A stretch of DNA of 64,000 nucleotides from Clostridiaceae bacterium Marseille-Q4149. GTDB taxonomy: Bacteria; Bacillota; Clostridia; Oscillospirales; Oscillospiraceae. Shown in pieces: positions 27,997 to 60,167 of the stretch. A program made the translations under genes and the position numbers. The notes below the pieces were generated by a model. That model worked only from the letters and a program-made list of their open reading frames with translations, did not search any database and was not told where the DNA came from. The DNA lies in contig CP073691.1 of NCBI GenBank assembly GCA_018228685.1, forward strand, positions 2,604,001 through 2,668,000. The letters are read 5' to 3'. The stretch's first letter is position 1; every line of letters starts with the position of its first letter.

Positions 27997-29616
27997 ATGC
28001 CCGGATTGGAGAAAAACCGCATTTACCGCGCCTGTATCCAGGGCTATTCCAGCGAGGGGCTGGGCATCGCCCGGATAGACGGCCAGGTGGTGTTTGTCCA
28101 CGGGGCCATCCGGGGGGAGATCTGCGACGTTCTGGTGATGAAGGTGCTGAAAAACGCCGCCTTCGGCAAGATCGCCGCCCTGGTGGAGCCCTCCCCTGCC
28201 CGCCGGACGCCGGACTGCCCCTACTACGGCCGCTGCGGCGGCTGCGATTTCCGGCATATGTCCTATGAGGAGGAGCTGTGGGCCAAGCGTGCCCGGGTGC
28301 AGGACGCACTGACCCGCATCGGCGGGGCGGAGGTGACGGTGGAAGAAATTCTGGGTGCGGAGCAGCCCCTGCACTACCGCAACAAGAGCATCTATCCCAT
28401 CTCCCCGGTGGGGGAGGTGGGCTTTTACCGGGCCCGCAGCCACCAGGTGGTGCATGTGGAGCACTGTCTCATCCAAAAGCCGGAGGCCGATGCCCTGGCT
28501 CAGGCGGTGCGGGACTATATTGCCCGGTTTCAGGTGGAGCCGTATAACGAGGCCACTGGCCGGGGCCTGCTGCGGCACCTGTACGTCCGCACCAGCTGCC
28601 GGGGGGAGTCCCTGGCGTGCCTGCTGGTCAACGGCTCCCGCCTGCCCCATGAGCAGGAGCTGGTGAATATGCTCCGGGCCGCCGCGCCAAAAACCTGCGG
28701 CGTGGTGCTGGGGGAAAATACCCGCCGGGGAAACGCCATCCTGGGGGACCGGTACCGCACCCTGTGGGGCCGGGACTATCTGACGGACACCCTGTGCGGC
28801 CTGGAGCTGCGGCTGTCGGTGCCGTCGTTTTATCAGGTGAACCACGACCAGGCCCAGCGCCTGTATGAAAAGGCCCTGGAATACGCGGGGCTGACGGGCC
28901 GGGAGCTGGCGGTGGACCTGTACTGCGGCGCCGGGACCATCACCCAGGTGCTGGCCCGCCGGGCCAGGCACGTCATCGGCGGCGAGATCGTCCCGGAGGC
29001 CATCCGGGACGCGGAGGAAAGCGCCCGCCGCAACGGCGTGGGCAACGTGGAGTTCCTGTGCGGCGACGCCTCCCGGCTGGCGGCGGAGCTGCGGCAGCGG
29101 GGCCTGCGGCCCGACGTGATCTGCGTGGACCCGCCCAGGAAGGGGCTGGCCCCCGACGTGGTGGAGGCAGCGGCCTCCATGGAGCCGGAGCGCATCGTCT
29201 ATGTCTCCTGCGACCCGGCCACCCTGGCCCGGGATGTGGCCCGCTTCGCCCCCCTGGGCTACCGCCCCGTCCGGGCCTGCGCCGTGGACCTGTTCCCCGG
29301 CACGGCGAACGTGGAGACGGTTGTCCTCTTGTCACGGGAAACAAATCCACTGACGGTTGAGGTCAGGATGGAAGTGGAAACCGGCGAGGTCAAGGAGCAT
29401 CCGACCTATAAACGCATTCAGGAGTATGTGCAGGAAAAGTACGGCTTCAAAGTCCATACGGCATATATTGCCGAGGTCAAGCGTATGGTCGGGCTGGATA
29501 TGCACAAAGCACCGAATGCTGTTGAACAGAGAAAACATGAGTATCATCCCTGCCCGCCTGAAAAGGTCGAGGCAATCAAGGATGCGCTGCGGCACTTTGG
29601 CTTAACCTCAGAGTGA
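27997..29616 (+). CDS. rlmD: 23S rRNA (uracil-C5)-methyltransferase RlmD with element-encoded C-terminal extension
   Basis: 539 residues. The TRAM domain (GLGIARIDGQVVFVHGAI) is followed by an iron-sulfur site CPYYGRCGGCDF, the SAM domain (AVDLYCGAGTI) and the catalytic cysteine in YVSCDPATLARD. The native protein would end at about residue 450. At codon 441 (VETV) the frame enters mobile element A and gains 98 residues, including TGEVKEHPTYKRIQEYV and HPCPPEKVEAIKDALRHFG. The native last codons (VVLLSKDMF, stop) now lie at 60138-60167. The extension could also be translated alone from ATG 29368 (GAGG upstream). The methyltransferase core is intact. Confidence 0.93.
   Translation: MPGLEKNRIYRACIQGYSSEGLGIARIDGQVVFVHGAIRGEICDVLVMKVLKNAAFGKIAALVEPSPARRTPDCPYYGRCGGCDFRHMSYEEELWAKRARVQDALTRIGGAEVTVEEILGAEQPLHYRNKSIYPISPVGEVGFYRARSHQVVHVEHCLIQKPEADALAQAVRDYIARFQVEPYNEATGRGLLRHLYVRTSCRGESLACLLVNGSRLPHEQELVNMLRAAAPKTCGVVLGENTRRGNAILGDRYRTLWGRDYLTDTLCGLELRLSVPSFYQVNHDQAQRLYEKALEYAGLTGRELAVDLYCGAGTITQVLARRARHVIGGEIVPEAIRDAEESARRNGVGNVEFLCGDASRLAAELRQRGLRPDVICVDPPRKGLAPDVVEAAASMEPERIVYVSCDPATLARDVARFAPLGYRPVRACAVDLFPGTANVETVVLLSRETNPLTVEVRMEVETGEVKEHPTYKRIQEYVQEKYGFKVHTAYIAEVKRMVGLDMHKAPNAVEQRKHEYHPCPPEKVEAIKDALRHFGLTSE
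29314..29321 (+). other. attL core of element A in rlmD
   Basis: GAGACGGT inside the VETV codons of rlmD. Identical cores at 52632-52639 and 60132-60139 are in the same coding frame. Downstream sequence differs between the three. Confidence 0.82.
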
Positions 29617-29631
29617 GTTTACGGCTAAAAA

Positions 29632-29673
29632 CCCAGCATCACGTCAATGGCGTGGTGCTGGGCTTATTTTTTG
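29632..29673 (+). terminator. Terminator after the rlmD extension
   Basis: CCCAGCATCAC / GTGGTGCTGGG stem (one G-T pair) and a T-rich tail. It supplies rlmD with a new terminator carried by the element. Confidence 0.85.
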
Positions 29674-29990
29674 TCGTGCTTCGGGGCTTTTTTTGAGGAT
29701 AAAACCGCCTGTGTGCCGTTTGCTTTTCTTTGCCATATTGACACGCTGCCCTCTGTTCGTCGTGGCACTGTGCGTTTTCGGGATAGAAAATGGACACTTA
29801 TCTTTGTATAGAGAGAAAGCCAGAGAGGAAAAAGAGGGTGAGCGCAGGCTGTGGGAACGGTGCGTAAACCGCTTGCGGTTTTCCACGGTTTCCATAGCCG
29901 CAGCGAGGGAGAAAAGGGAGAGGTGGCTTTCTCGCTCAGGCGGCTTGCCGCTGCTCTTTGGCTCTCCCTTTTCTCCCTGAAAATCAGGGA
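29674..29990. other. Non-coding left-end stretch of element A
   Basis: 317 bp between two convergent units. Open frames exist on both strands but have biased, low-complexity translations and no ribosome sites. I see no gene here. The region could hold regulatory or transfer sequences, but no clear motif was found. Confidence 0.5.
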
Positions 29991-30422
29991 TTATTCTGCA
30001 TCATTGCTCGGCGTAACAGGACGAAAGTCCTCCTGAACGCCCTCATTGAGGTCAAAGCACATGGTTTTTGCATCGGCAACCCAGAACCCGCGCACCCTGT
30101 AACGCTTGCCGGGAATCCAGTCCTCGCCGGTGACAGCGCGAAGCGGGTCAAGCAGATTCTTGTTGGAGATCGTAACAACACCTTTCTGTTCGCCTCTCGG
30201 CTTGGAGAACTTGAATCCCTTCGGTTCGTTGCTCTTGCAGGAACGGATCGCAAATACCCTCGCTTTCGCATCCAGCAGACACAAAACGTAGGCGGGATAG
30301 CTCAAGTCCTCAAGCACTTTCTTAGTGAAAGTCACGCCGTTCTGATTCAGGAACATATCCGGGTAGGCGTTGATGTTGGAGTCGATGGTTTCAAAGTTCA
30401 AAGCGGAAAAATCGAAGTTCAT
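29991..30422 (-). CDS. Hypothetical element-borne protein
   Basis: 143 residues (MNFDFSALNFETIDSN...). No catalytic motif or membrane segment is visible. It is a mixed alpha/beta soluble protein with a central RSCKSNEPKGFKFSKPRG segment and GKRYRVRGFWVADAKTM near the end, which looks like a small beta-rich binding fold. GAAAGGA lies upstream of the ATG. It starts 14 bp after the stop of a serine recombinase on the same strand, so the two are probably one operon. Function unknown. Confidence 0.7.
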   Translation of the reverse strand: MNFDFSALNFETIDSNINAYPDMFLNQNGVTFTKKVLEDLSYPAYVLCLLDAKARVFAIRSCKSNEPKGFKFSKPRGEQKGVVTISNKNLLDPLRAVTGEDWIPGKRYRVRGFWVADAKTMCFDLNEGVQEDFRPVTPSNDAE

Positions 30423-30435
30423 AGTAAAAATCCTT

Positions 30436-31638
30436 TCATTTCATAGTGTTTTGCGCCTCATCCACGATTTTCATAAACTCCTGACGTTCCATAAAAGACC
30501 AGCGGGAATCCATAATCAGATAGCCCTTGAAAAGACCATCCTTTACGCGGTATGCGACGAAGTGATTGCTTAAACGGCGCAATGTAGTTCGTTTTGCTGT
30601 GCTGTGCCGCTCTGACAGTAGCTTTTGTACCTTGATCCAATCCTCTTTTTTGATAATCGCTGTGTGGTGATTTTCCTTGAAATACATATTCAAATCTGTA
30701 TTTTTGACGGATTTATGGGTGCGAAAATCCTTGGTATAGGTTTTCTGCATCAAAGCATCACCGCAGTATTTCTCATTTCGGAGGATGCTGCGGACAGTAC
30801 CGGCAGACCAGAGATCGTTCCCCATTGGAGATTTGATACCCTGTTCTGTCAGTGCGGCGGCGATTTCTGCCGGGGTTGCGCCCTCCAAGCAGCTTTCATA
30901 GATGTACTCAACAATTCTTGCCTCGGTCGGCTCAATGACAAGCCGCCCGAAATGATCACGATAGAAGCCAAGCGTATTCTGAACGGAGAACTTGTAGATG
31001 CCCTCCGCCATGCGCCAGCGGATACCAGCCTTAACTGCCTCGCTCTTTTGCTGGGACTCCATTTCAGCCAAGGCTGCCAGCAGCGAGATCAGCAGATTAT
31101 TCCGCCCATCGCCGGTATAGGCGATTCCTTCTGTCTCAAACTCAACGGAAACGGGCGGGTTCAGCGCAGAAAGCGTTCGCAGATTGTCCAGAATATCCAC
31201 GATATTTCTACCAAAACGGCTGATGCTTTTGGTGAGAATCAGGTCAATCTTCCCGTCAACTGCGTCGGCAATCATTTTCTGAAAGCCAAGACGTTTTTCA
31301 ACGGTAGTTGCGCTGATGCCCTCGTCTTGATAAATCTCAACCAGCTCCCATTGCGGATTTGCCTCAATCCTCTTGGTAAAATGGTGGATCTGCATATCAA
31401 AGCTGCCGACCTGCTGTTCCTCCTGTGTGCTGACGCGGCAGTACGCCGCAACACGGAGTTTGGGCGGCTCCTCTGCAAGTTCCCGCCGTTTCTGCGGTGG
31501 GATAATAATAACGCCATTTCCACGCTGGTTATAAGAAATTTCGTCCTGCATCTGGCGGCGTTTTTGCTCTCTGCGCTCGGCTCTGCTTCCGGTCTGTCGC
31601 TTTACCTCTATCGCTTTGGGGTCAAGCGGTTTTGCCAT
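30436..31638 (-). CDS. Large serine recombinase (second recombinase of element A)
   Basis: 400 residues. A basic 60-residue N-terminal extension precedes the resolvase domain (RVAAYCRVSTQEEQ, catalytic Ser70; LILTKSISRFGRN). The recombinase domain follows (GIRWRMAEGIYKF...TLGFYRDHFG, LRNEKYCGDALMQKTY). The zinc ribbon and long coiled coil of integrase-type enzymes are short or absent, so it is smaller than the right-end recombinase. It may serve a different nested element or act in excision or inversion. AGGAGGCGG lies upstream, overlapping a small upstream ORF. Confidence 0.88.
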   Translation of the reverse strand: MAKPLDPKAIEVKRQTGSRAERREQKRRQMQDEISYNQRGNGVIIIPPQKRRELAEEPPKLRVAAYCRVSTQEEQQVGSFDMQIHHFTKRIEANPQWELVEIYQDEGISATTVEKRLGFQKMIADAVDGKIDLILTKSISRFGRNIVDILDNLRTLSALNPPVSVEFETEGIAYTGDGRNNLLISLLAALAEMESQQKSEAVKAGIRWRMAEGIYKFSVQNTLGFYRDHFGRLVIEPTEARIVEYIYESCLEGATPAEIAAALTEQGIKSPMGNDLWSAGTVRSILRNEKYCGDALMQKTYTKDFRTHKSVKNTDLNMYFKENHHTAIIKKEDWIKVQKLLSERHSTAKRTTLRRLSNHFVAYRVKDGLFKGYLIMDSRWSFMERQEFMKIVDEAQNTMK

Positions 31639-31684
31639 ATTCCGCCTCCTGCATCAGAATCCGTCTGCGTTTTCTGCTTTGCAT
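31622..31684 (-). CDS. Short ORF translationally linked to the recombinase
   Basis: 20 codons, MQSRKRRRILMQEAEYGKTA, starting after GGAGGTGGT and ending 17 bp inside the recombinase start. Very basic. It may only serve to couple translation. Confidence 0.4.
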   Translation of the reverse strand: MQSRKRRRILMQEAEYGKTA

Positions 31685-32192
31685 CGGCACACCACCTCCT
31701 TTGACCGATTTCCAATTTCATTACTACCACGCTCCTTTTTGAAAATTATGACAATCCACATACGCGAGGTAAGCGGAACAGTCACCCAAAGAAAAAGGCA
31801 GCAGAATTGCTCCTGCTGCCTGAATCTGTATGAACTTGTAAGGAGATCAAAATGTTTCTCCGTCGTAATCACAGCGTCGAGACAGGGGCTTATTTCACAC
31901 CATAGGTGATGAAAAATCAGGGGTAGATATTATCGACCTCCACGGCAGAATAAACCCCAATTACCACTCTAAAAACCGCCGCATAAATCAATGCTTGTGA
32001 AATCCGAAAAGTTATTTCCCGATTTGCATACTCATTACACGGAATCGCGCTCTACGGTACAGTGTTCCCAGTGTTCGGAACGGGAAAGGTTTTTGCGGAT
32101 TGGCGCAATCCCGTTCGGTTCCGCAAAACCGCATAGGGGCTGATATGAACAGTGCGTCATTGCCGTCTGTCAGAATCGCCCAGAAACGGGAT
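31685..32192. other. Intergenic stretch with a minus-strand terminator
   Basis: About 500 bp without a supported gene. A hairpin GGCAGCAG-aattgct-CCTGCTGCC (31797-31822) followed on the minus strand by TTTTTCTTT is a likely terminator for the helicase unit at 32193-36428. An inverted repeat CGGAACGGGA / TCCCGTTCGG spans 32077-32118. Confidence 0.6.
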
Positions 32193-34820: not shown

Positions 34821-34875
34821 ATTTTCACCTTCAAGGTAGTATGACAGCACATTTCTTAGGTCAGCGGATGATTCA

Positions 34876-35160
34876 TCAGCTTTGCAGAAATCCCGATCTC
34901 GTTGAAAAACCTTGCCCAAGATAGCCAAAGGACTTGCCTATGCCCACGCCAGCTTCAATCGCAAAATGCAGATCGTTTATGAGGGCGTCCACAATCTCAA
35001 AAGACATATCCTGCTGCCCCTCACGCATTTCCAATCCATGCTGCGGGGCTTCATCCCAAAAGAAGGTGCTGACTTGCTCACTCATGGAGTACAGCTCTGC
35101 TTTTCTGCGCTTTTTCCGTTCCTCCGATGTATTGAATCCAAAATAAAATCTATTGTCCAT
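34876..35160 (-). pseudogene. N-terminal remnant of a DinG/Rad3-like helicase
   Basis: 95 codons from ATG 35160 (GGGAGGAATGTGG upstream). The recognisable part, REGQQDMSFEIVDAL and AIEAGVGIGKSFGYL, is a Q-motif plus Walker A of DinG-type helicases. It then passes into an unrelated tail (GQGFSTRSGFLQS). The remaining roughly 600 residues are missing, so the gene is 3'-truncated. It lies between the NYN gene and the Res-like gene on the same strand. Confidence 0.65.
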
Positions 35161-35189
35161 CCACATTCCTCCCGGAATAGAAACCAAGG

Positions 35190-36428
35190 CTATCCGCGTT
35201 TCAGCTCAATGCTGACGTTTCCGTTCTCGTCGATGGTCAGCGTCATGTGCCTGATGTGCTTCTCATAGAACTGCCGCCGCTCTGCGGGAGACATTTCGAT
35301 CCTCGTGTTTCGCAGAGCAGCGTCAAACATATCGTTGACGTTCAGGTGAACGGAGTTGTCAATCCAGCGGTACATCTCCTTGAATAGTGCGTTTTTCTTG
35401 ATGTCCTCGCTGTTGCCGGAGTAGAAGTCATCCAGATAGCAGTAGAATATCCCGGATTCTGCAAGTGCTGCCTTCATATCCGGTCCACATTTTTCCCGCT
35501 CAATCATGACAAGAAATCTGGCGTCCGGCAAGGAAGAGATAAGCCCCCAGTAGTCGGAATCGCTTGAGACAATGACGAAGGAATCCACTTGCTTCTGGTA
35601 GTGTTCCTGACAGGCTCTTGCGGTGAGCTTGATGTCTACCAGTGATTTGTTCTGCTTGATCCGCTCAATCATGATATGTTCAACGGGGATGCGGGTGTAG
35701 TTTTCAAGAATCCGCCATGCCGTAGCAGTATGTACGTCATCAAAAAGAATGATCGCCGTAATTTTCTGCATGACTTCATAATCAAGGTTTTTGAGCGTGG
35801 CGCACAGCTTGTACGGGTCAGAGTTTTCGCAGTCCACTACCAATACGGTTTTCTCGCTGTCATCTATGAAATCGTAGATATTGTTTTTTACAAAAGCCCC
35901 TGCATCGGAGACTTTACTGTATTCCGTGAAGGCGTCGCAATGCCATTGATAAAGCAGGGTTGCAAACTTCTTGTCATTATAGAGGACATTGCCCTCGTCC
36001 ATCGGTACCCAGTTGATGTACATTTGATAGGGGTAGTAGGAGAGACTTGCGTAATAGATGTCCGCAGCATCTTTCGTTCCGTCCTCTGTCAAACCGTTTG
36101 GCATAATGAACAGCTCTTTTATGTACGTCCAGTTAATCCAGATTGGAAAGAGGCTTTTGCAGTTGTTAATGCGGTCTGAAATCAGCCGGTTGATCTCGAT
36201 AATGTGGTGGCATAGCTTTGTACTCGACTTTTTGATAAAGCTGATTCCGTCGTTTGAGAGCTGCTGCATACTGGAAGCAGGAATGATCTCCGGCATTGAA
36301 AGCAGCCCACGGTATTCCATCCGCATGATGTCATTTATTTTCCGGTAGTTGCACTCAATGGCGGTGCGGATGATACATAGATTTCGGATAATGCGGGCAT
36401 TTTTATCCTGCTCAAGCCGGATTTTACT
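35190..36428 (-). pseudogene. NYN/PIN-like ribonuclease-domain protein, 5' truncated
   Basis: The first ATG in frame is at 36326 (378 residues), but the frame stays open and protein-like to 36428 (KIRLEQDKNARIIRNLCII), so the start has been lost. The middle of the protein has the NYN fold: VLVVDCENSDPYKL, FDDVHTA, DIKLTARACQEHY and FVIVSSDSDYWGL, with the acidic residues of the active site in place. NYN domains cleave RNA. The truncation point is where the sequence turns AT-rich. A shortened product from 36326 is possible and would keep the NYN domain. Confidence 0.72.
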
Positions 36429-36531
36429 TTACACAATAACTCCATATAATTACCGGAATCAGACAAAGCCGAAAAAAGAAAGAAGATTAGGAACCGTAAT
36501 AATTCTATTCAAATTTTCTTCCTGATTCACT

Positions 36532-37596: not shown

Positions 37597-37629
37597 ATAA
37601 ATCCTCCCATCTTCTAATTTATCTTTAAA

Positions 37630-42597: not shown

Positions 42598-43575
42598 CTA
42601 TTTATTTTGATAGTTGATTCGTTCTCCTTGAATTAGTGGATAACAAATCATTTTATCACTATCCAGATTTTCTACATGCATATCTACTGCACTGATCTGA
42701 TGGTTTTCATAAGTATTGTAATAATAAATACCTTTTGTAACATTACAACACGACGTATACAATGTGATTTCATATTTTCCATCCGCTACTTCGCAACATC
42801 CTCGTTGCTGATCCACAGATCCAAGAATGTGAAAGAACTGACTAACACTTTCTTCCTCAGATTCACCTGAAATTGCATTTACCTTTGTAAAAGCCACACG
42901 CACAAAACGAGAAGAAGATGAAAGATCTCCCGGAAGACCTAAACCTCCCATACCTCTACTATATGCATTAAGAGCCAAATTTCCTCCAAAAGTGTTTTTG
43001 GGTTGCTTTGGGGATAAATACATATAATTATTTAATTGAAACATCTGCTGTGGAAATGGCGGATTATTCGTAAGCACTCCTACAGGATTATCGTAAATAT
43101 GTAGACTATCTGACATAGACTCTACAGTAATTGATTCATTTTCATCAGCGATAATCCAATGTAATTGTGCTAATGGCAATTGCTCACTGAAAGGAGTATT
43201 AACAATATTAATTTGATTAAGAAGCTTACGAACTTCTGCTAAAGAAGCACACTGACTTAAAATCCATGGAATAAATTCAAACTGTGCAATATTTTCAACA
43301 TCTGGTTGAACCTCGGAATAAACAGCATTTCCGACAAAATTCAGACCTGCCATTGCCACTCCTTTTTCATTCATCGCATCATAATGTAAAGGATAATCCT
43401 CTGCAACATGAGCCATTCCAATAATTGCATAATGATTTTTCATATCGCCAACATGACGGAAATGGAATGAATAGTTACGTGGTGTAATTACTATCTGATC
43501 ACCGTAAGAGAATTCATAATCGAGGGTTCGTCCAAAGTAAAAATCTTTTGTCTTATAGGTTGCTGCTGTACACAT
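42598..43575 (-). CDS. bsh: Bile salt hydrolase (choloylglycine hydrolase family)
   Basis: 325 residues, an Ntn hydrolase. After removal of Met1, Cys2 is the nucleophile (MCTAATYKTKDFYFGRTLDY). Arg16 and Asp19 match the conserved Arg18/Asp21. Asn79 (AMAGLNF), Asn170-171 (VLTNNPPF) and the arginine of SSSSRFVRVAF follow. The loop GMGGLGLPGDLSS is the bile-salt-hydrolase signature and separates it from most penicillin V acylases. No signal peptide is present, so it is cytosolic. It would deconjugate glycine/taurine bile salts, a classic gut-adaptation trait, here on a mobile element. AGGAGGAT lies upstream, with a plausible promoter at 43603-43631. Confidence 0.92.
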   Translation of the reverse strand: MCTAATYKTKDFYFGRTLDYEFSYGDQIVITPRNYSFHFRHVGDMKNHYAIIGMAHVAEDYPLHYDAMNEKGVAMAGLNFVGNAVYSEVQPDVENIAQFEFIPWILSQCASLAEVRKLLNQINIVNTPFSEQLPLAQLHWIIADENESITVESMSDSLHIYDNPVGVLTNNPPFPQQMFQLNNYMYLSPKQPKNTFGGNLALNAYSRGMGGLGLPGDLSSSSRFVRVAFTKVNAISGESEEESVSQFFHILGSVDQQRGCCEVADGKYEITLYTSCCNVTKGIYYYNTYENHQISAVDMHVENLDSDKMICYPLIQGERINYQNK

Positions 43576-50266: not shown

Positions 50267-50304
50267 GCTGTTGCAGCAGCTTACCCACCCATGAGACAGG
50301 AATA

Positions 50305-50716: not shown

Positions 50717-50899
50717 ATGGTAGAAAACGAAAACTACAAGAGCTACACTGCAAACAATGGAACTGAGCTTCGCTTTCCCAAGGAGAGCGTGATTCAGATG
50801 ACAGCAGAGCAGAGAGACTGCTACCAGAACTTTATCAATGTTCTGGCACAAATCCTGATTAAATATGCTGCCGCAGAAAAGGAAAATCAGAAAATCTGA
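50717..50899 (+). CDS. Small hypothetical protein upstream of the recombinase
   Basis: 60 residues (MVENENYKSYTANNGTELRF...LIKYAAAEKENQKI). Acidic N-terminus and a helical C-terminus. It ends 52 bp before the recombinase start on the same strand with TGGAGTG upstream. It could be a small regulator or directionality factor; no recognisable motif. Confidence 0.6.
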   Translation: MVENENYKSYTANNGTELRFPKESVIQMTAEQRDCYQNFINVLAQILIKYAAAEKENQKI

Positions 50900-50951
50900 G
50901 CAGAGTATTCCGGGCGGTCGATGACCGCCCGGATCTGCAATAGGAGGAAAT

Positions 50952-52667
50952 ATGTATAATACGAAAGAGGGCAAATCGTGTGTTATCTATATCCGCGTCA
51001 GCAGTGAGCGTCAGGTAAAGGGGTATAGTCTGGACGGGCAGAAACACTATCTGGCTGAATGCGCCGAGCGTCGGGGTATGACCGTTCTTGATATCTACGT
51101 TGAAGAAGGCAAAAGCGGCAAGAGCATCGAGGGACGGACTGAGTTCCAGCGGATGCTGGATGACATTCAGAGCGGAAAAGTGCATACGGACTATGTGCTG
51201 GTTTTCAAATTATCGAGGTTTGGCAGAAACGCACGGGACGTGCTGAACTCCCTTGAGTTCATTATGAAATATGGCGTTCATCTGATGTGCGTAGAAGATG
51301 GGCTTGATTTCTCAACCTCTATGGGAAAAATGATGATTACCATTCTCGGTGCGGTAGCTGAGTTGGAACGTGAGAACATCATTGCACAGAGCCTTTTGGG
51401 GCGTGAGGAAAAAGCAAAGTCCGGCGGCTGGAACGGCGGCTTTGCACCCTATGGGTATCGTCTGGTAAAGGGTGATGACAAGAGTAAAGGGAAATTGGAG
51501 ACCGTCCCGGAAGAAAAGGCTGTCGTGCAACTGGTTTTTGATATGTTCCTGAACCGAAATATGGGCTACACGGCAATTTCGGGCTATCTCAATCGAAACG
51601 GTTATACTCGCCCACCGGCAAAGAATGCCATCCGCCCCAGCTATGGAGAGTGGAGTTCTGACCACATTAAGAGAATGCTCAGTAATCCAATCTATACCGG
51701 GCGCGTAGCATGGGGCAAGCGCCGCACAGAGAAAGTTCCCGGCAAAGATAACGAGTATCGGCTTGTGAAGCAGGACGAGTATATTTTGAGTGAGGTTGTT
51801 TCCCATGAGGCGTTTGTTTCCAAAGAAGATTTTGACAAGGTTCAGGAGATCAAAGCCATTCGTGGGAAAAAGGGTAATCACAACATTGGTCAGTATAACG
51901 CGCATCTGTTGTCCGGTATCGTAAAATGTCCGCAATGCGGCGCACCTATGTATATCGGTATGACCAAGTGGACAAATCAGGATGGCACGGAGCGCCGCAC
52001 AGAATCTTATGTCTGTTCTTATGCGACTAAACACAGGGGGACTTTGGTATGCCGCAGAAATGGCGTGGTAGCCAGTCAGGTTGAGGACGAGGTGATGGAG
52101 TACACCCGGAAGATTGTCCGCAATCCGCAGTTTATCAAGGATTTGCAGGAAAAGGTAATGACCGCCGTGGACATGACCGAGGTCGAAAATGACATTACCG
52201 CCTATAAAAAGCAGCTATCCGCTTTACAGCGCAGCCGTGACAGCTTGGAACAGGATATTGACCGCATTGCCCCGGATGACAAGTATGCAGAACGACGCCG
52301 CGCGGATATGACGCGCCGCCTGAATGACCTCTATGACCAGATTTATAAGGCGGAGGATCTGCTGCAAGAGAGCCTGATGAAAAAGGCAACTTTGGAAAGC
52401 GAGCAGATGTCTGTGCAATCTATGATTGGAATCCTCTCGTCTTTTGACGCAATCTATGATAGAATGAATGCGGCAGAGCGGCGCGACCTTGTGAAATACC
52501 TGATTTCCGAGGTTGAGTTGTTCCCACGTGAGGAGCAAAAGACGCAGAAACGCTTTGTAAAGGCGATTGCGTACAAGTTTCCCATTGAGCAAAAGGTGCT
52601 CACGCAATTTGACGAATGCGGGGCATCTGTCGAGACGGTGTGTCTATTGACCAAGCATCCGGACTGA
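50952..52667 (+). CDS. Large serine recombinase (integrase of element A)
   Basis: 571 residues. The resolvase domain carries catalytic Ser17 (CVIYIRVSSERQ) and KLSRFGRNARDVL. The recombinase domain (WNGGFAPYGYRLVKGDD), the zinc ribbon (KCPQCGAPMYIG and CSYATKHRG) and a coiled coil follow. Codons 560-563 (VETV) contain the att core. The last eight residues (CLLTKHPD) come from the left end of element B, so the natural end of this protein depends on what lies across the site. AGGAGG lies upstream. Likely functional. Confidence 0.94.
   Translation: MYNTKEGKSCVIYIRVSSERQVKGYSLDGQKHYLAECAERRGMTVLDIYVEEGKSGKSIEGRTEFQRMLDDIQSGKVHTDYVLVFKLSRFGRNARDVLNSLEFIMKYGVHLMCVEDGLDFSTSMGKMMITILGAVAELERENIIAQSLLGREEKAKSGGWNGGFAPYGYRLVKGDDKSKGKLETVPEEKAVVQLVFDMFLNRNMGYTAISGYLNRNGYTRPPAKNAIRPSYGEWSSDHIKRMLSNPIYTGRVAWGKRRTEKVPGKDNEYRLVKQDEYILSEVVSHEAFVSKEDFDKVQEIKAIRGKKGNHNIGQYNAHLLSGIVKCPQCGAPMYIGMTKWTNQDGTERRTESYVCSYATKHRGTLVCRRNGVVASQVEDEVMEYTRKIVRNPQFIKDLQEKVMTAVDMTEVENDITAYKKQLSALQRSRDSLEQDIDRIAPDDKYAERRRADMTRRLNDLYDQIYKAEDLLQESLMKKATLESEQMSVQSMIGILSSFDAIYDRMNAAERRDLVKYLISEVELFPREEQKTQKRFVKAIAYKFPIEQKVLTQFDECGASVETVCLLTKHPD
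52632..52639 (+). other. Internal att core between elements A and B
   Basis: GAGACGGT within the recombinase 3' end, followed by TGTCTATTGACC. It marks the junction of two tandemly integrated elements. Confidence 0.8.
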
Positions 52668-52687
52668 GGCAGAAATGCGGCATCATT

Positions 52688-52798
52688 GAGCGTGAGAATT
52701 ACAACAAGCCCAAGTCTGAGGATACCAGGCAACCGCAATGCCCGCCGGAGAAGGAAAAGGCAATTACGGAGGCATTACGTCACTTTGGGATGATTTGA
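52688..52798 (+). pseudogene. Remnant of the RlmD-extension module at the left end of element B
   Basis: Frame IERENYNKPKSEDTRQPQ then CPPEKEKAITEALRHFGMI. The last part matches the end of the 98-residue rlmD extension in element A (CPPEKVEAIKDALRHFGL). The middle of the module is lost and it is out of frame with the recombinase. Confidence 0.7.
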
Positions 52799-52834
52799 GG
52801 CGGATGTCTTAATCATAAAAGGAACGGTGAGGGT

Positions 52835-53533
52835 ATGAAGTACAAAATTGCGATCTGCGACGACTCCGGTGCGGACAGGCAATATGTTTTGAATATGGTG
52901 CGCGCTTGGGCTTCGTCCGCCGGTCATACGGTGCATATCGACGACTTCCCCTCCGCCGAGAGCTTCCTGTTCCGCTACGCAGAAGAAAGCGACTACGACA
53001 TTCTCCTGCTGGATATCGAAATGGGCGCGATGGACGGCGTCACGATGGCAAAAGAGCTTCGCAAGAGCAACGACACGGTGCAGATCATTTTCATCACCGG
53101 CTACTCCGATTACATTTCAGAGGGCTACGAGGTGGCAGCGCTCCACTATCTGATGAAGCCCGTGAAGGAAGAAAAGCTCCGGTCGGTGCTGGACCGCGCC
53201 GTGGAAAAGATAACGAAAAACGAACGGGTCTTGCATTTCGAGGCCGGCGGAGAAATGGTGCGTGTGCCGATTTATCAGATTCGATATGCAGATGTGCTGG
53301 GCAACTATGTGACCGTTCACGCGCGAACGGATGTGACGGTGAAAATGACATTGGGCGAGCTTGAAAGGCGGCTTGACGAGCGGTTTTACCGCGTGGGGCG
53401 CTCTGCGCTCGTGAATCTGACGCAGATTAGCCGCGTCACCAAGACGGAAATCAAACTGAGCGACGGAACCGCCATCCCGCTGCCGCGGGGCGCGTATGAG
53501 GGCGTCAACCGTGCCATCATCCACATGAGGTAA
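52835..53533 (+). CDS. LytTR-family response regulator
   Basis: 232 residues. The receiver domain has acidic CDDSG at residues 8-12 and phosphoacceptor Asp60 in DILLLDIEMGAMDG. The LytTR DNA-binding domain (about 125-232) contains RYADVLGNYVTVHA and FYRVGRSALVNLTQI. AgrA-type regulators of this kind often control peptide export or immunity. It is followed 5 bp later by its kinase and then two ABC exporters, all on the plus strand. Confidence 0.93.
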   Translation: MKYKIAICDDSGADRQYVLNMVRAWASSAGHTVHIDDFPSAESFLFRYAEESDYDILLLDIEMGAMDGVTMAKELRKSNDTVQIIFITGYSDYISEGYEVAALHYLMKPVKEEKLRSVLDRAVEKITKNERVLHFEAGGEMVRVPIYQIRYADVLGNYVTVHARTDVTVKMTLGELERRLDERFYRVGRSALVNLTQISRVTKTEIKLSDGTAIPLPRGAYEGVNRAIIHMR

Positions 53534-53538
53534 GGCGT

Positions 53539-54201
53539 ATGGGCTTGTTTGCAAAGAAAATTGAAAAGCAGCTCGCCTCCTATCAGCAGGAGCTGATCGA
53601 AACGCATTATCGCGAAGTAGACAATATGTACCGTCAAATTCGCGGCTGGCGGCACGACTACCGCAACCATATCCAGACCATGAAGGCCTACGCCGCTGCG
53701 CAGGACTGGGACGCCATCCAAAACTACCTCGACCTGCTGGACACCGACCTGCAAACCGTGGACACGGTCATCAAGACCGGCAATCCCATGACCGACGCCA
53801 TCTTGAACTCCAAAATCTCCCTTGCAAAGGCGAAGGGCATCGAGGTAGCGGCGGATGCCCACATCCCCGTCAGGCTGAAATCCTCGGAAATTGACCTCTG
53901 CTGCATCCTCGGCAATCTCTTCGACAACGCCATTGAGGCCAGCATGAAGCTGCCGGAGGACAAGCGCCTCATCCGGGTCTATATGGATATGAAAAATACC
54001 CAGCTCTACATCTCCTTCACCAATTTTACCGCCGGGAAGAAAATGCAGAAGGAGGGAGGGCTGTTCCGCAGCACCAAGGGCGAGGGACACGGCTTCGGTC
54101 TTGTCCGCATCGACGCCATCGTGGAGCGGCTGGACGGATACATCAGCCGCAACAGCGAGGACGGCGCGTTCACCACCGAAATACTGCTTCCGCAGGAGTG
54201 A
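53539..54201 (+). CDS. Soluble GHKL histidine kinase
   Basis: 220 residues. The H-box is GWRHDYRNHIQTMKAY (His39), the N-box ILGNLFDNAIEAS, and the G-box GEGHGFGLVRI. There is no membrane or sensor domain at all: the protein begins directly in the dimerisation helix. AgrC-type kinases normally have six membrane helices, so this is either a truncated form or a cytosolic kinase that relies on another protein, perhaps the downstream ABC pair, for sensing. Confidence 0.9.
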   Translation: MGLFAKKIEKQLASYQQELIETHYREVDNMYRQIRGWRHDYRNHIQTMKAYAAAQDWDAIQNYLDLLDTDLQTVDTVIKTGNPMTDAILNSKISLAKAKGIEVAADAHIPVRLKSSEIDLCCILGNLFDNAIEASMKLPEDKRLIRVYMDMKNTQLYISFTNFTAGKKMQKEGGLFRSTKGEGHGFGLVRIDAIVERLDGYISRNSEDGAFTTEILLPQE

Positions 54202-54230
54202 GAGCTGCAATTCATCCCCCGGAAAAAGCG

Positions 54231-54264
54231 ATTCGTCCCCGGAATGCTCCGGGGACGATTTTTC
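54231..54264 (+). terminator. Hairpin between the kinase and ABC genes
   Basis: ATTCGTCCCCGGA-atgc-TCCGGGGACGATT followed by TTTCTT. It may act as a partial terminator lowering ABC expression relative to the regulators. Confidence 0.75.
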
Positions 54265-54297
54265 TTGATAGAATGCGGGCAAAAGGAGGGGGCGCAG

Positions 54298-56115
54298 ATG
54301 AAAAGACCAACATATTGTCCGTTTCAAAACATAAGCTACATGATCCGCAGGGCATACCGCGAAGCGCCGGTCATTCTCCCGGTCGCGGCGGGTATGATCG
54401 TCGCGGGCACTGCCATCAACATTCTGGAGCTGGTTACAGCGCCTGCGATTCTCGACGCCGTGGAGCGCAATGTGCCGATTGCTGCGCTGCTCCGAATGAT
54501 CGCTGCGTTGACGGCAGCCATGCTGCTCGCCTGTTCCGGGCGGGCCTATCTTTGGGAAAACGCACTGTTCGGGCAGGTGCATTTAAGAATCAACATCAGC
54601 TCCCAGCTGCACAGCAAATTCTGCACAACGTCCTACGCACATCTTCTGGACACTGCGTATATCGAGCGGAGCAACAAAGCGCAGCTGGCCACGCAGGGCA
54701 ATACAGATGCAACGGAAGCCATCTGGGATACTCTGGTCGAGCTGTGCACCAATGCGATCAGTTTTTCCGTTTATCTGCTGCTGCTCGGTTCTGCCAATCC
54801 GGTCATTCTGGCGATCACGCTGGTCGCGGCTGTTTTCAGCTATTCTGCCGGCAAGCGCATCCGCCTGTGGCGATATCAGCATCAGGACGAAGAGGCCGCA
54901 TACCGGCAGCGGCTTTCGTACATCGCCAAGCGCGCCAGAAGCAGAGAGCTTGCAAAGGATATCCGCATTTTCGGACTGAAGGCATGGCTTCAGGCGCTGT
55001 GGGGGCAAAGCCTCGCACTGTACCACGATTTTTGCAAAAAGGCGGAGAAGCGACATCTGCTGGCAGATACGGTGGACATCCTTGCAACGCTTCTTCGCAA
55101 TGGTGCGGCCTATGCGTATCTTCTCCGCATGACGCTGCTCGGCGAATTGAACGCACCGGAGTTTGTGCTGCTCTTTTCTGCAGTCACAGGCCTCGGCAGC
55201 TGGACGACGGGACTCCTGCGCAATCTTGAGACCCTGAACAAGCAGAGCAGCGACATCTCCTTTGTCCGGGAGTACCTTGACACGCCCGAGCCCTTCCCCT
55301 TTGACGAAGGAGAGCCCCTGGCCGTTAAGCCGAATCACCGCTATACCATGGAGCTGCGGGACGTATCCTTCCGCTACCCCAACGCCGAATCGGAGGTGCT
55401 GTCCCATGTGAACCTGAAAATCGCCGCCGGGGAGAAGATCGCACTGGTCGGCCTGAACGGTGCGGGCAAGACCACCATGCTCCGGCTCCTCTGCGGCTTT
55501 CTCGACCCCACAGGCGGAACGGTCCTTCTGGACGGAGAGGATATCCGCCGGTACAACCGCCGGGACTATTACCGCCTCATTGCGGCAGTATTCCAGCAAT
55601 CCTCCGTTCTTGCGGGGACGATCGCCGAAAATGTGGCGCAGGCCACCGACGGGATCGACGCTGCGCGGGTAAGGCGCTGCCTTGAGCAGGCCGGATTGTC
55701 AAATAAGGTGCGCTCTCTTCCCGGCGGGGAAGAAACGCTTCTGAACCGCAATGTCTATGAAAATGCCGTCGAATTTTCCGGGGGCGAAATGCAGCGCTTG
55801 CTGCTGGCAAGAGCACTCTATAAGAACGCTCCCATTCTGGTGCTGGATGAACCGACCGCGGCGCTCGACGCCATCACCGAGAGCGCATTGTACCGGCAAT
55901 ACAATGAAATGACGAGAGGCTGCACCGCCATCTACATCTCGCATCGCCTGGCGTCCACCCGCTTTTGTGACAGGATCATCCTTGTGGAAGGCGGGAAAAT
56001 CGCAGAGGAAGGCACGCACGAGGCGCTGATGGCGCAAGGCGGTGCATATGCAGCGCTATTTGCGGTGCAGAGCAAATATTATCAGGAGGAGGTGCGGCAG
56101 AATGAAGCGGACTGA
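54298..56115 (+). CDS. ABC exporter half-transporter (permease plus ATPase), first of pair
   Basis: 605 residues from the ATG after AAAAGGAGGG; earlier in-frame starts have no site. Six membrane helices lie in about residues 1-310. The ATPase has GLNGAGKTTMLRLLCGF (Walker A), EFSGGEMQRLLLARAL (signature) and LVLDEPTAALDAI (Walker B). It overlaps the next ABC gene by 14 bp, so a heterodimer is expected. Exporters of this type, next to LytTR systems, commonly move peptides or act in antibiotic resistance. No precursor peptide gene was found. Confidence 0.92.
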   Translation: MKRPTYCPFQNISYMIRRAYREAPVILPVAAGMIVAGTAINILELVTAPAILDAVERNVPIAALLRMIAALTAAMLLACSGRAYLWENALFGQVHLRINISSQLHSKFCTTSYAHLLDTAYIERSNKAQLATQGNTDATEAIWDTLVELCTNAISFSVYLLLLGSANPVILAITLVAAVFSYSAGKRIRLWRYQHQDEEAAYRQRLSYIAKRARSRELAKDIRIFGLKAWLQALWGQSLALYHDFCKKAEKRHLLADTVDILATLLRNGAAYAYLLRMTLLGELNAPEFVLLFSAVTGLGSWTTGLLRNLETLNKQSSDISFVREYLDTPEPFPFDEGEPLAVKPNHRYTMELRDVSFRYPNAESEVLSHVNLKIAAGEKIALVGLNGAGKTTMLRLLCGFLDPTGGTVLLDGEDIRRYNRRDYYRLIAAVFQQSSVLAGTIAENVAQATDGIDAARVRRCLEQAGLSNKVRSLPGGEETLLNRNVYENAVEFSGGEMQRLLLARALYKNAPILVLDEPTAALDAITESALYRQYNEMTRGCTAIYISHRLASTRFCDRIILVEGGKIAEEGTHEALMAQGGAYAALFAVQSKYYQEEVRQNEAD

Positions 56116-57976
56116 CGAAGCGACATGGAAAGAAAGCTTTTCCATCAATTACCGCGCGCTCGGGCTGTGGAGGAAAATGGCGGGGCGATTTCTCCTCGCC
56201 CTCACCCTCAGCACTGTGCTGGAGGCTCTTGCGCCCTATATCCCTCTGGTTTTTACCGCGCGGCTGCTGGATGAGATCGCAGGAGCGCGCGACCCTGCGC
56301 GACTGACAACGCTATGCGTCCTGCTGCTTTCCATCAGCACACTCACCCTGCTGCTTGCGGCGGCCTGCAAGCACTGGTGCACCGCCGAGGAGGAGACAAA
56401 TTCTTACAGAGAAGCGCAGCAGTTCTTTACAAAGCTCCTGCAAATGGATTTCTGCGCAGTGGACGACGCCAAGACGCACGACCTGCTCTCCCAGATCCGC
56501 CAAAACGAAACGTGGTCGGGCTGGGGCCTGCCTCGTGTGCCGGAGGAATATCAGACCCTGCTCAGGGGGCTTATTAAAATCGTCTGTTCCGCCGCGCTCT
56601 CCGTCAGCCTGTTTTTAAAGCCCGTCAGGGCGGATTCTCCCATTGTGTGGATCAACCATCCCGCCTGTATCCTGTTTGTGCTTGCCTCACTTCTTTTCGC
56701 AACATGGCTCTCCCCGTTCTTATTCAACAAAGGCGCAGCATACTGGACAAAGGCCGGCGAGAATGTAAAGCTCGGCAACCGCCTTTTTTCCTTCTTTAAC
56801 TATATTGCAGCAGATGAGCCGGAGCGTGCACAGGATATCCGAATCTATGAGCAGGAGCACTTTTTCCATCAGAAGCTGGAATCGATCCTCCCCACACTTC
56901 TCACGGAAAAATGCCGGATGGCCCGCTACGCATGGGGCCCGCTGGGGCTTTACAAAGCGGCTGCCGAGGCGGTCACCCGCATCCTGAACGGCGTCGTATA
57001 CCTTTTTGTTTGCCTCAAAGCGCTGGGCGGCGCCTTCGGCGTCGGCTATATTACGCAGTATGTCGGTGCGATCTCCGCGCTCTCGGGCGGGCTTTCCGAT
57101 TGCGTCCGGACCTTGGGCGATATGCGCAACAACGTGCCGAATCTCAAGCTGGTGATGGAATTTCTTGATATTCCCAATACGATGTATCAGGGGTCGCTCA
57201 CGACGGAAAAGCGCTCCGATCACCAATATCATGTGGAGTTTCGGGACGTGTCCTTCCGCTATCCCGGCTCCGATCAATACGCGCTCCGCCATGTCAGCAT
57301 GAAGTTCAGGGTCGGCCGCCGCCTGGCGGTCGTAGGGGAAAACGGCAGCGGCAAAACCACCTTTATTAAGCTTCTCTGCCGCCTGTACGACCCGACCGAG
57401 GGCGAGATTCTGTTAAACGGCATCAACATCCGCAAATACCGGTATGAGGATTATCTTGCGCTGTTTTCCGTGGTGTTTCAGGACTTCAGGCTGCTGGCCC
57501 TGCCCTTGGGACAAAACGTTGCGGGCGCAAGGGATTACGACGCAGCGCTGGCTGAAAGATGCCTGCAAAAAGCGGGATTTGCCGCCCGGCTCAAGCATCT
57601 GCCGGCAGGGCTGGACACATCGCTATATACGGATCTTGATCCTGCCGGCATAAATATTTCCGGCGGCGAGGCGCAGAAGATCGCCATTGCCCGCGCGCTC
57701 TATAAGGACGCGCCCTTCATCATCCTCGACGAGCCAACGGCGGCGCTGGACCCCATCGCCGAGGCGGAGATCTACAGCAAGTTCGATGAGATCGCAGGCG
57801 ATAAGACTGCCATCTATATCTCCCACCGCCTGTCCTCCTGCAAATTCTGTGACGAGATCGCCGTGTTCCACGAGGGCGCGGTCATCCAGCAGGGCAGTCA
57901 CGCCGAATTGCTCGCCGATCGGGGCGGCAAATACTACGCGCTCTGGAACGCACAGGCGCAGTATTATACGGAGTGA
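56102..57976 (+). CDS. ABC exporter half-transporter, second of pair
   Basis: 624 residues. The start at 56102 is within the end of the first ABC gene (AGGAGG upstream). The membrane domain spans about 1-370 and includes a long unusual cytoplasmic stretch (RQNETWSGWGLPRVPEEYQTL region). The ATPase has GENGSGKTTFIKLLC, INISGGEAQKIAIARAL and IILDEPTAALDPI. All catalytic residues appear present in both halves. Together they form a heterodimeric exporter. Confidence 0.92.
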   Translation: MKRTDEATWKESFSINYRALGLWRKMAGRFLLALTLSTVLEALAPYIPLVFTARLLDEIAGARDPARLTTLCVLLLSISTLTLLLAAACKHWCTAEEETNSYREAQQFFTKLLQMDFCAVDDAKTHDLLSQIRQNETWSGWGLPRVPEEYQTLLRGLIKIVCSAALSVSLFLKPVRADSPIVWINHPACILFVLASLLFATWLSPFLFNKGAAYWTKAGENVKLGNRLFSFFNYIAADEPERAQDIRIYEQEHFFHQKLESILPTLLTEKCRMARYAWGPLGLYKAAAEAVTRILNGVVYLFVCLKALGGAFGVGYITQYVGAISALSGGLSDCVRTLGDMRNNVPNLKLVMEFLDIPNTMYQGSLTTEKRSDHQYHVEFRDVSFRYPGSDQYALRHVSMKFRVGRRLAVVGENGSGKTTFIKLLCRLYDPTEGEILLNGINIRKYRYEDYLALFSVVFQDFRLLALPLGQNVAGARDYDAALAERCLQKAGFAARLKHLPAGLDTSLYTDLDPAGINISGGEAQKIAIARALYKDAPFIILDEPTAALDPIAEAEIYSKFDEIAGDKTAIYISHRLSSCKFCDEIAVFHEGAVIQQGSHAELLADRGGKYYALWNAQAQYYTE

Positions 57977-57998
57977 AGCTGCTCTGTGCGTCAGAAAG

Positions 57999-58050
57999 AA
58001 ACCGCTGTAATCCCCATCCCGCGCAGGATGGAGATTACAGCGGTTTTGTG
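57999..58050 (+). terminator. Strong terminator after the ABC pair
   Basis: AACCGCTGTAATCCCCATCC / GGATGGAGATTACAGCGGTT, a nearly perfect 20-bp stem, followed by TTGTGTTTT. Confidence 0.9.
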
Positions 58051-58277
58051 TTTTCTGAGCAGGCATGACAAGCTGCCTTTTGCGGTTTGTATATGCACCC
58101 GCGAGGAAAATGGAGGGATTGCAAAGGGAGGTCTCGCCTGTCGGCTCGGTCAGCGCTTCAAAGCGTTTCACGCTTTGAGGTCTCCACCGGAGACCCGCGC
58201 CCCTTTGACGCAGGGTTTCCAATAGGGGCGTGAGCATCCCTGTTGGCACACGATTTTGCTTTGCAAAGTCTAGTGTG
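58051..58277. other. Intergenic segment
   Basis: No supported gene. Contains short inverted repeats (GCGCTTCAAAGCG, and CACGCTTTGAGGTCTCCACC / GGAGACC-type arms). It resembles decayed 3' flanking DNA of a larger mobile element. Confidence 0.4.
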
Positions 58278-58739
58278 TTATACCTTTGCTGACCGCTGAC
58301 GCGGAAAAGGGGTTGGCGGCATACTCTGCGGTGCGGCAGAGTGTGGCAACAAACGCTTTTTCGCGGCAGTAGGACAGGCGGATTTTGTGATGTGAGCTAC
58401 AGCACAATCGCAGGATTTTTGAGCAGCAAAATCCGACTGGCCGGAAAAGGAAGTGAAGGTATATATATCAATCGAAGCATCACTCAAATGCAGCTCATGC
58501 AGAGCTGTGTTTGGGTGATTTTTTGTTTCCGTCCGCCCCATCAGATAATCGCAGGAAACACCGTAATAGTCAGCCAGCAACAGAATGCTGTACGGGCTGA
58601 TGTCCTTGCCGTTATCCGATTCATATTTGCCAAGCGCGGATTTCGAGATGCCCACCTCAACAGCAAGCTGCTCCAAGGTCAGTTTTTTCACCACTCGTAA
58701 ATCCTTCAAACGCTCCCCGATTGTCAGCTTAATCTGCAT
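58278..58739 (-). CDS. XRE-family regulator with foreign C-terminal tail
   Basis: 153 residues. The HTH (IGERLKDLRVVKKLTLEQLAVEVGISKSALGKYE) and the following SPYSILLLADYYGVSCDYLMGRTETKNHPNTALHELHLS segment are typical of a short phage/ICE repressor of about 90-110 residues. From about residue 95 the sequence (FSGQSDFAAQKSCDC and onward) is low-complexity, basic and unlike the family. A deletion has probably joined the gene to non-coding DNA, though the DNA-binding part should fold. Confidence 0.75.
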   Translation of the reverse strand: MQIKLTIGERLKDLRVVKKLTLEQLAVEVGISKSALGKYESDNGKDISPYSILLLADYYGVSCDYLMGRTETKNHPNTALHELHLSDASIDIYTFTSFSGQSDFAAQKSCDCAVAHITKSACPTAAKKRLLPHSAAPQSMPPTPFPRQRSAKV

Positions 58740-58923
58740 ATACCCACCTTCATTTTAGCTTTTTCTGGATGATATCACACTTTTTTATTTTTGCCGAAAA
58801 GCGTGGAAATTGCCGTCTTTCATGCAACTTTTCCCACCTTTCGGATATACGGGAGAGGGCCTCTTTTCTTACTAAAATTTAGATGGTAACCACGCAGCAC
58901 CTTGAAAACTTCATGACCGTCCG

Positions 58924-59211
58924 ATGGGATATGTTTTCCGGCGAAGTACCGCATTCCGCTATCAAGGAAGCGACAACGCCGGAGTAAAACTCGGGCAGGA
59001 ACGGCACCGGGCAGAACGGCAGCACTCAAAACATTTGGTAGATGAATGGAGCGGCTTCGCCGCTTTGCTGGCAAATTTGATTGAAAAGTATGCCGTGGTT
59101 CTGGATCTTGATGCGCTGCCCGATCTCGTCATAGAGGAAGCCGTGCCTGAAAAAGACGGGGCAGATGAGATGATTCACGAAAACGATATTGAGCCCGCGA
59201 AAGCGGCATGA
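58924..59211 (+). pseudogene. C-terminal fragment of an unrecognised element protein
   Basis: The believable part is HSKHLVDEWSGFAALLANLI then EKYAVVLDLDALPDLVIEEA and an acidic tail, ending at 59211. The N-terminal 30 residues look like unrelated sequence read in frame. It resembles short acidic C-termini of small ICE proteins; no function is assigned. Confidence 0.4.
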
Positions 59212-59288
59212 TATAATTATCATGAAATAAGCGTCCAAACCGCCATTGCAGGAGCAAAAGCTCCTGCAATGGCAGAAAACGAGGTGAA

Positions 59289-60167
59289 GTGACCAAGGAA
59301 CGCTGGGAGAATGAGCAGAACAATTCTGAAATGCTGATTTATACCACAGAGGACGGTTTGACAAAGATCGAAACGACCTTCGATGGCGATACCGTTTGGC
59401 TGTCCATTGACCAGATGGCGGAGCTGTTTCAGCGTGACAAATCTACCATTTCCAGACATATCAAGAACATTTTCACTGAGGGCGAATTGAAGCGGGAAGC
59501 AGTTGTTGCAAATTTTGCAACAACTGCCGCTGACGGCAAAACCTATCAGGTGGATTACTATAATCTCGATGTCATCATTTCCGTCGGCTACCGTGTGAAA
59601 TCCCAGCGCGGCGTGCAGTTCCGTATCTGGGCAACGGGGATTTTAAAGGAGTATATGCGAAAAGGCTTTGCGCTGGACGATGAGCGTCTGAAAAATCTGG
59701 GCGGCGGTGGCTATTTCAAGGAACTGTTGGAGCGCATCCGCGACATCCGTGCTTCCGAAAAGGTGTTTTACCGTCAGGTACTTGAAATCTAAGCCACCAG
59801 CATTGATTATGACCCCAAGGCGGAAATCTCCGTTCAGTTTTTCAGAAAAATCCAGAACAAAATCCACTATGCCATTCATGGGCAGACGACGGCAGAGGTG
59901 GTTTACACACGTGCCGACGCAGAGAAAGAATTTATGGGCTTGACTACTTTTTCGGGCAGCCAGCCCACGCTGAAAGAGGCGGTAGTTGCCAAGAAATACC
60001 TGATTTCCGAGGTTGAGTTGTTCCCGCGTGAGGAGCAAAAGACGCAGAAACGCTTTGTAAAGGCGATTGCGTATAAGTTTCCCATTGAGCAAAAGGTGCT
60101 CACGCAATTTGACGAATGCGGGGCATCTGTCGAGACGGTGGTCCTGCTTTCCAAGGACATGTTCTGA
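59289..60167 (+). pseudogene. RhuM-family gene with nonsense codon, fused to recombinase and rlmD tails
   Basis: A GTG start after GAGGTG gives 167 residues of RhuM-type protein (TVWLSIDQMAELFQRDKSTI, YNLDVIISVGYRVKSQRGVQ, RIWATGILKEYMRKGF). At 59790-59792 a TAA replaces the Tyr expected in IYATSIDYDP. The frame continues (ATSIDYDPKAEISVQFF...VVYTRADAEKEFMGLTTF) to AKKYL. At 59993 it joins the last 147 bp of a serine recombinase gene, then at 60140 the native rlmD tail VVLLSKDMF. All four pieces are in one frame. Confidence 0.85.
60132..60139 (+). other. attR core
   Basis: GAGACGGT followed by GGTCCTGCTTTCC, the native last codons of rlmD (VVLLSKDMF, stop at 60165-60167). Confidence 0.82.

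Follow-up and report, generated by a model that had tools for sequence, protein, structure and literature searches.

We analysed a window of 64,000 nucleotides from Clostridiaceae bacterium Marseille-Q4149 (contig CP073691.1, positions 2,604,001 to 2,668,000), in which two mobile elements, here called A and B, lie in tandem at the 3' end of rlmD. Comparison with relatives leads us to propose, with a probability of about 0.7, that the attachment (att) site of this element family, found in gut bacteria, lies inside the gene for their serine recombinase, and that the piece exchanged at this site is a domain of the recombinase, present in the circular element and removed from the enzyme by integration. 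On this reading the site separates the catalytic protein from a C-terminal module some 100 residues long. As long as the element is a free circle, the two would form one long recombinase of about 660-680 residues, with a flexible linker in front of the module. Insertion at the 3' end of rlmD would then cut the gene at the core of the site, leaving a recombinase that ends with V-E-T plus whatever adjoins it: a short tail from rlmD, a module belonging to the next element of a tandem array, or rlmD read in antisense. The module would be left at the opposite end of the element where, in the usual orientation, it would extend RlmD, a host RNA-modifying enzyme, with VVLLS restoring the last residues of that enzyme. 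The evidence consists of the swap and its reading frame, the conservation of the module, its co-evolution with the recombinase, an inverted class of insertions, permanent fusions, and the exchange of modules in tandem arrays.

The core, GAGACGGT, occurs six times in the window against 1.13 copies expected. Three copies mark element boundaries, at 29314-29321 (attL), 52632-52639 (the A/B boundary) and 60132-60139 (attR), all read as V-E-T-V, and therefore define two tandem elements, A (29314-52631) and B (52632-60131); the remaining copies, at 2966 and, on the reverse strand, at 20324 and 24309, lie away from the boundaries. (Features are on the forward strand unless stated.) The body of rlmD (27997-29319 as far as the V-E-T of the core; TIGR00479 rumA, 382 bits) continues past the core as VETVVLLSRETNPL...HFGLTSE, yielding an RlmD of 539 residues (27997-29616) in which the last nine codons (VVLLSKDMF) have been lost and 98 element-encoded residues gained. 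These begin with the VVLLS codons (29320-29334) that restore the RlmD end, a place occupied by VLPKS in the inverted class, and go on with a linker and helical module (29335-29613, stop at 29614-29616) recognised from alignments, from a match to phrog_27283 (E = 1.8e-14) and from an AlphaFold model, which predicts helices at about 29407-29442, 29458-29490 and 29557-29595. At the far boundary the core frame reads VETVVLLSKDMF and a stop, that is, the displaced native rlmD tail VVLLSKDMF (60138-60167).

Recombinase A (50952-52667, 571 residues) has 562 codons up to V-E-T and a C-terminal end reading VETVCLLTKHPD; its stop falls nine codons past V-E-T, within the decayed module copy of element B. 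Matches to PF00239 (Resolvase), PF07508 (Recombinase) and PF13408 (zinc ribbon) identify it as a large serine recombinase and, with attR within the integrase gene and attL within rlmD, the arrangement is that of a rumA/rlmD-targeting element with reciprocal C-terminal exchange. Element B is decayed. Its left module (52638-52799) contains two stops, the end GIIERENYNKPKSED...ALRHFGMI being recognisable in another frame, and its right side retains just a C-terminal recombinase remnant (59992-60137) behind a truncated rhuM (59289-59792; PF13310, profile positions 1-101 of 252). This remnant is near-identical to the end of recombinase A, 148 of 160 bases agreeing between 52481-52640 and 59981-60140. 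An initial annotation, made from the letters of the window, had already described the common V-E-T-V frame in rlmD, recombinase A and the displaced tail, together with the loss of nine codons and gain of 98 residues, and translation bears it out; its prediction of a 660-residue long form for a circle of element A is likewise correct (562 + 98). An in-frame match at a single locus would arise by chance one time in three, so that the weight rests on relatives.

Among 54 distinct recombinase ends, 45 have the core in the recombinase frame (one with an inverted core), although the profile of recombinase C-termini used in the search was itself built from in-frame ends. These 45 continue into short tails (24), the module (15) or another tail (six). 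In three of the nine exceptions, too, a core or a core-like sequence is in frame: L180 ends V-E-T-L and stop, too short for the search pattern, while L201 and L203 have core-like IECV and DETV further on. The other six are interrupted ahead of the core (L144, L182, L209) or represent a degenerate extra copy (L186), an altered end (L265) and a core-less fusion (L198). The ends compared are diverse, 13 aligned C-termini showing 27-44% identity to the first, and the profile matched 32 of 80 genomes, 78 of which have the module, and 8 of 34, all with the module. A further kind of tail lying past the core in the recombinase frame (about ..RKADSYVKLNVKMEDYYRI..) was seen at L146 (10392-10605), L142, L192 and L196, and is by eye unlike the helical module.

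What follows the core also varies for recombinase A itself. The 107 recombinase-A proteins listed, to E = 1e-60, carry a short tail in 65 cases, a module in 26, another tail in two and no recognisable core in 14, so that natural long forms across the core make up 26 of the 93 with a core among the matches listed. The short tails include the KDMF of the window but also RVKE, KDML and RTIR, and we read them as native rlmD ends of different hosts. The sequence past the core is therefore not fixed, and a tandem neighbour often supplies the module. In tandem arrays, indeed, foreign modules are present on recombinases. A search with the fused RlmD tail retrieved 7977 proteins at E = 1e-3 or better, scoring just those candidates that share most words; among the best 120 of these, which were inspected, a recombinase end stands upstream of the module in nine. 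These recombinases are other than A, and the nine fusions are probably again tandem arrays.

The exchanged piece itself appears to be a new conserved module of about 100 residues, under purifying selection and lacking a Pfam family: comparison with Pfam matched none, and a literature search, mostly without subscription journals, returned no paper recognisable as describing it. Alignments give the layout VVLLS, variable linker, TYxxI...G...V...YIAxVKxxxGL...CPPEK..AI..AL.HF, and 51 of 60 members match phrog_27283, a family of 69 positions and unknown function. The median ratio of non-synonymous to synonymous substitution rates (dN/dS) is 0.077 for 409 pairs from 102 complete modules and 0.075 for 33 disjoint pairs, both values being biased downwards by the use of complete modules and of pairs with at least 60% amino acid identity. 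When 35 disjoint pairs selected by their synonymous divergence are pooled, the helical part has a ratio of 0.14 and the linker one of 0.22. The module is present in 11 of the 13 loci-bearing genomes and in 101 plasmid records; it was found in 35 of 200 genomes of one family by a single-sequence search, in 12 of 299 at phylum level and, by a profile search, in 59 of 120 sampled from the family of an Extibacter muris genome, which we take to be the Lachnospiraceae. On an Enterococcus plasmid a module reading frame (L051, 5983-6294) lies inside an lsa(E)-spw-lnu(B) resistance region, as though an rlmD-type element had brought that region in.

Modelled alone by AlphaFold, the module has three helices with a mean predicted local distance difference test score (pLDDT) of 64, the first helix blocks reaching 82-83. 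Foldseek returned no match for this model at E = 0.001 or better, and we rejected any fold assignment from a model this weak; matches to sequences in the PDB are at chance level (best E = 0.0093) and a weak match to an IS630 transposase scores 18.8 bits against a cut-off of 100. A winged helix-turn-helix would be a guess. A natural long form of 662 residues was also modelled, in which a neighbour's module follows a recombinase that shares 98% identity with A. Its linker (555-591) lies below pLDDT 50 and is followed by module helices at 596-607, 613-622 and 646-658, which is consistent with a domain tethered to the recombinase.

In a few elements module and recombinase are joined without any core. 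The genes L267 (658 residues) and L268 (656 residues) are complete, with a resolvase-type start, recombinase body and module in a single frame; L266 is a fusion gene of this kind interrupted by a stop. All three lie in viral contigs and are 93-95% identical to L198, a fusion cut by the contig end in which the recombinase end likewise runs into the module. A second lineage (L270, from genome G1203) has the same build at 670 residues and 41% identity. Among four relatives dN/dS is 0.02-0.06 for the permanent module and 0.02-0.07 for the recombinase part. In L266-L268 and L270 the fusion gene is followed, with an overlap, by a second recombinase gene (the two genes lie within 2756-6404 in L268 and 2750-6419 in L267). 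A core or core-like sequence (VETVALL, VEVVCLL, VATVCLL) closes this second gene in L266-L268, and the locus end cuts it in L270. There are five such core-less frames against 17 with a core, a sixth, L273, having been scored as core-less but carrying a core-like VDTIALL. With a fusion as query, 75 of 299 genomes were matched, mostly in the module part, with one further core-less fusion among them, and no fusion covering 80% of the core-less query was found in the plasmid search. As these permanent fusions demonstrate, a recombinase can have the module as an ordinary C-terminal domain, and we therefore rate our proposal higher, as well as the idea of a detachable domain set out below, and two of the three rivals lower.

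In the rival that survives best, unlikely though we consider it, the module would be a small protein translated on its own, such as a repressor, an accessory protein or a directionality factor, from a gene overlapping the site; its continuity with the recombinase would be historical. An ATG lies between core and first helix in 39 of 65 distinct modules, phrog_27283 is only 69 positions long, and free-standing relatives of 69-74 residues exist at L127 (2042-2248), L128 (1351-1572) and L129 (5547-5756). No role follows from the neighbours of these relatives, which presumably are an integrase-like and a regulator-like reading frame near L127 and a carB-like gene beside L129. The start from ATG 29368, which the initial annotation had named as the alternative in the window, is not general, however: 26 of the 65 modules have no such ATG, six of them having no GTG or TTG either. 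Moreover, the linker upstream of the possible starts is itself under purifying selection, as the pooled value given above and one of 0.26 for a pair of inverted elements attest, and the permanent fusions likewise speak for a domain rather than a separate protein.

A second rival, against which the core-less recombinases that carry the module also speak, makes the module a servant of RlmD: a replacement 3' end would keep the target enzyme working, and the frame in the recombinase would be incidental. In its favour VVLLS is restored straight after the core in the usual orientation, and rlmD fusions are common. Database searches found both the recombinases and the rlmD genes carrying the module for which the initial annotation had advised looking, the latter accounting for 60 of 102 distinct complete modules; among 113 non-duplicate frames, some of them fragments, rlmD is the fusion partner of 55 and a recombinase that of 12, the other 46 having neither. 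Divergence tells otherwise. In 27 delimited elements, whose left module and right recombinase are separated by about 5-66 kb, with intervening undetected sites possible, module distances correlate with recombinase distances (Mantel r = 0.75, p = 1e-4), as they do in a set thinned to 17 elements (r = 0.68, p = 1e-4). Between module and RlmD there is no correlation (r = 0.01, p = 0.37, 21 elements). Three groups share the same pair of ends, and in their nine pairwise comparisons the ends are covered to 76-100% and the interiors to 15-48%, as expected if both ends travel as a unit that would be contiguous in the circle; one element, G155, pairs ends of different types. Such comparisons favour assigning the module to the recombinase over assigning it to RlmD.

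The inverted class separates the two partners. In G110 the element is inserted in rlmD in the opposite orientation, so that its left end abuts the antisense of the native rlmD tail (VETVVWMSRVKD and stop), while the recombinase end on the right is joined to antisense rlmD sequence and becomes HVETCVLLSHKNPQTSPPSL and a stop. The antisense of the recombinase end also encodes VLLS for RlmD, a point in favour of repair of the target enzyme. The module of G110 is unfused to RlmD, and module and recombinase are in one frame across the inverted core, both reading V-S-T. G384 has the same left end. Although the module is off RlmD and VVLLS has been replaced, linker and helical part are still conserved, dN/dS between G110 and G384 being 0.26 and 0.16 respectively, which indicates purifying selection. 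We read this as two separate roles, in which VVLLS repairs RlmD and the linker and helices go with the recombinase; a module that serves RlmD is accordingly improbable in our judgement. Recombinases of the inverted clade are common, and the junction is shown by 118 among the best 120 of 1067. Searches of genomes gave G110 as the sole inverted-class case among 8 matches to the module in 345 genomes, and G1007 as the one inverted-clade match to the recombinase in 398. One further inverted-clade recombinase, P0273, has a tail that looks like the end of a recombinase of its own kind read in antisense, as a tail-to-tail meeting of two elements might leave.

Equally improbable is the specific form of the switch suggested in the initial annotation, in which the module would act as a directionality factor on the recombinase, the form in the circle being of the excision type and integration converting the enzyme: the module is small, helical and beside the site, some elements have a permanent long form beside a recombinase ending at the core, and engineered integrase fusions with a recombination directionality factor (RDF) shift recombination towards attL x attR and away from attP x attB (passages of PMC5737554), but such a factor fused in the circle would oppose integration, and no similarity to a known RDF was found by sequence, profile or fold (the fold model having a mean pLDDT of 64). 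Since the long form must perform integration, an effect of this opposite sign is less likely. By analogy with phage Mx8, the simplest view is that the long recombinase would be the form that integrates and would then be cut down.

Several observations weigh against our proposal of a recombinase domain removed by integration. A circle joining recombinase A to its own module was not found, SRETNPL, from the module at the left end of element A, occurring on none of the 93 recombinase-A proteins with a core among the matches listed. The interpretation in the initial annotation stands in its frames, its coordinates and the grouping of module with recombinase, and is left without its circle of element A. 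All the long forms observed across the core, moreover, can be tandem neighbours, and linkage on one element alone could make module and recombinase co-evolve, the Mantel comparison having no interior control gene. The out-of-frame junction that the initial annotation had set against its own reading does occur, in four distinct recombinases that overlap the same rlmD-type core in the +1 frame and end within 20 codons (L136, 3232-5287; L137; L138; L139); these belong to a subfamily different from that of recombinase A, and show therefore that the in-frame arrangement is not obligatory. Of 31 distinct intact modules fused to neither protein, four follow such a +1-frame recombinase and five lie too near the start of the stretch, which leaves 22 with no recognised recombinase within 600 bases upstream. 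The inverted test comprises one delimited element (G110) and one left end (G384), and in the genome of the third inverted-clade recombinase (G1007) no module was detectable. Finally, the permanent fusions do not make loss of the module regulatory. At locus L132 (14844-16288) two cores enclose 1.4 kb in which the module is intact but no recombinase is recognised; this may be a mini-element that is mobilised in trans.

The integration stability and exit of elements with large serine recombinases are known mainly from phages with separate directionality factors. From the comparisons above we infer that the circle produces the long form and that a recombinase deprived of the module differs in activity, most likely to the benefit of the integrated state, as with phage Mx8. 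We lean, by a modest margin over even odds, towards seeing the module as a detachable domain by which the recombinase reports its own integration state: a neighbour would re-arm the recombinases of tandem arrays, the inverted lineage would have kept the frame, its RlmD being repaired by the antisense of the recombinase end, and two lineages would have fixed the module and placed behind it a second recombinase that ends at the core. If this is true, a recombinase domain is physically removed by the enzyme's own reaction, a self-contained memory of state. The natural pairs of long and short enzymes, some of them side by side, could then yield a one-way integrase for genome engineering.

Some other features of element A deserve mention. 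Directly upstream of recombinase A is a small open reading frame of 60 residues (50717-50899). The element carries a choloylglycine (bile salt) hydrolase (42598-43575, reverse strand; NCBIfam, 502 bits) and, just inside its left end, a second serine recombinase without a zinc ribbon match (30436-31638, reverse strand), relatives of which adjoin the same type of module in L139, L141 and L248.

The closest known systems are the streptococcal rumA integrative and conjugative elements with single serine integrases described by Ambroset et al. (2016, PMC4701971). In the passages compared, the 3' parts of rumA and integrase are exchanged, attR lies inside the serine integrase gene, and the integrase of the excised element differs in length and C-terminus, the two forms being thought probably to differ in function, with phage Mx8 cited. 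The same gene end is the target here. The C-terminal exchange itself and its probable functional effect are thus already published; what appears new is the swapped piece as an in-frame domain of the recombinase. Those passages report a change of frame, whereas here the frame is kept at most distinct ends, and they contain nothing on a conserved module, on its co-evolution with the recombinase, on an inverted class or on a permanent fusion. Our +1-frame subfamily may be what that paper saw. Tandem accretion at rum with three att sites (passages of PMC5053989) and the detected circular forms of phi-m46.1 (passages of PMC4288039) concern the same site, and in the passages compared neither a module nor a C-terminal swap is described. 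Streptococcus phage YS162, which we take to belong to the phi-m46.1 group, carries the module on rum, its record ending in pgmA.

Beyond this target, attachment sites inside coding genes have precedents. In mycobacteriophage BPs (passages of PMC4557955) attP lies inside a gene, and integration shortens the protein and changes its activity; there the truncated gene is a repressor and the lost tail an ssrA-like degradation tag, whereas the core here lies in the recombinase gene. The engineered integrase-RDF fusions (passages of PMC5737554) resemble the proposed long form in that a fused small protein controls direction, and differ in being artificial and permanent, the module being no known RDF. 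A further precedent is phage Mx8 as described in passages of PMC4701971: its attP lies inside the integrase gene, and integration swaps a C-terminus of 112 residues for one of 13, giving a less active enzyme. The Mx8 integrase is a tyrosine recombinase and recombinase A a serine recombinase, yet in both the attachment site lies in the integrase gene and integration alters the C-terminus.

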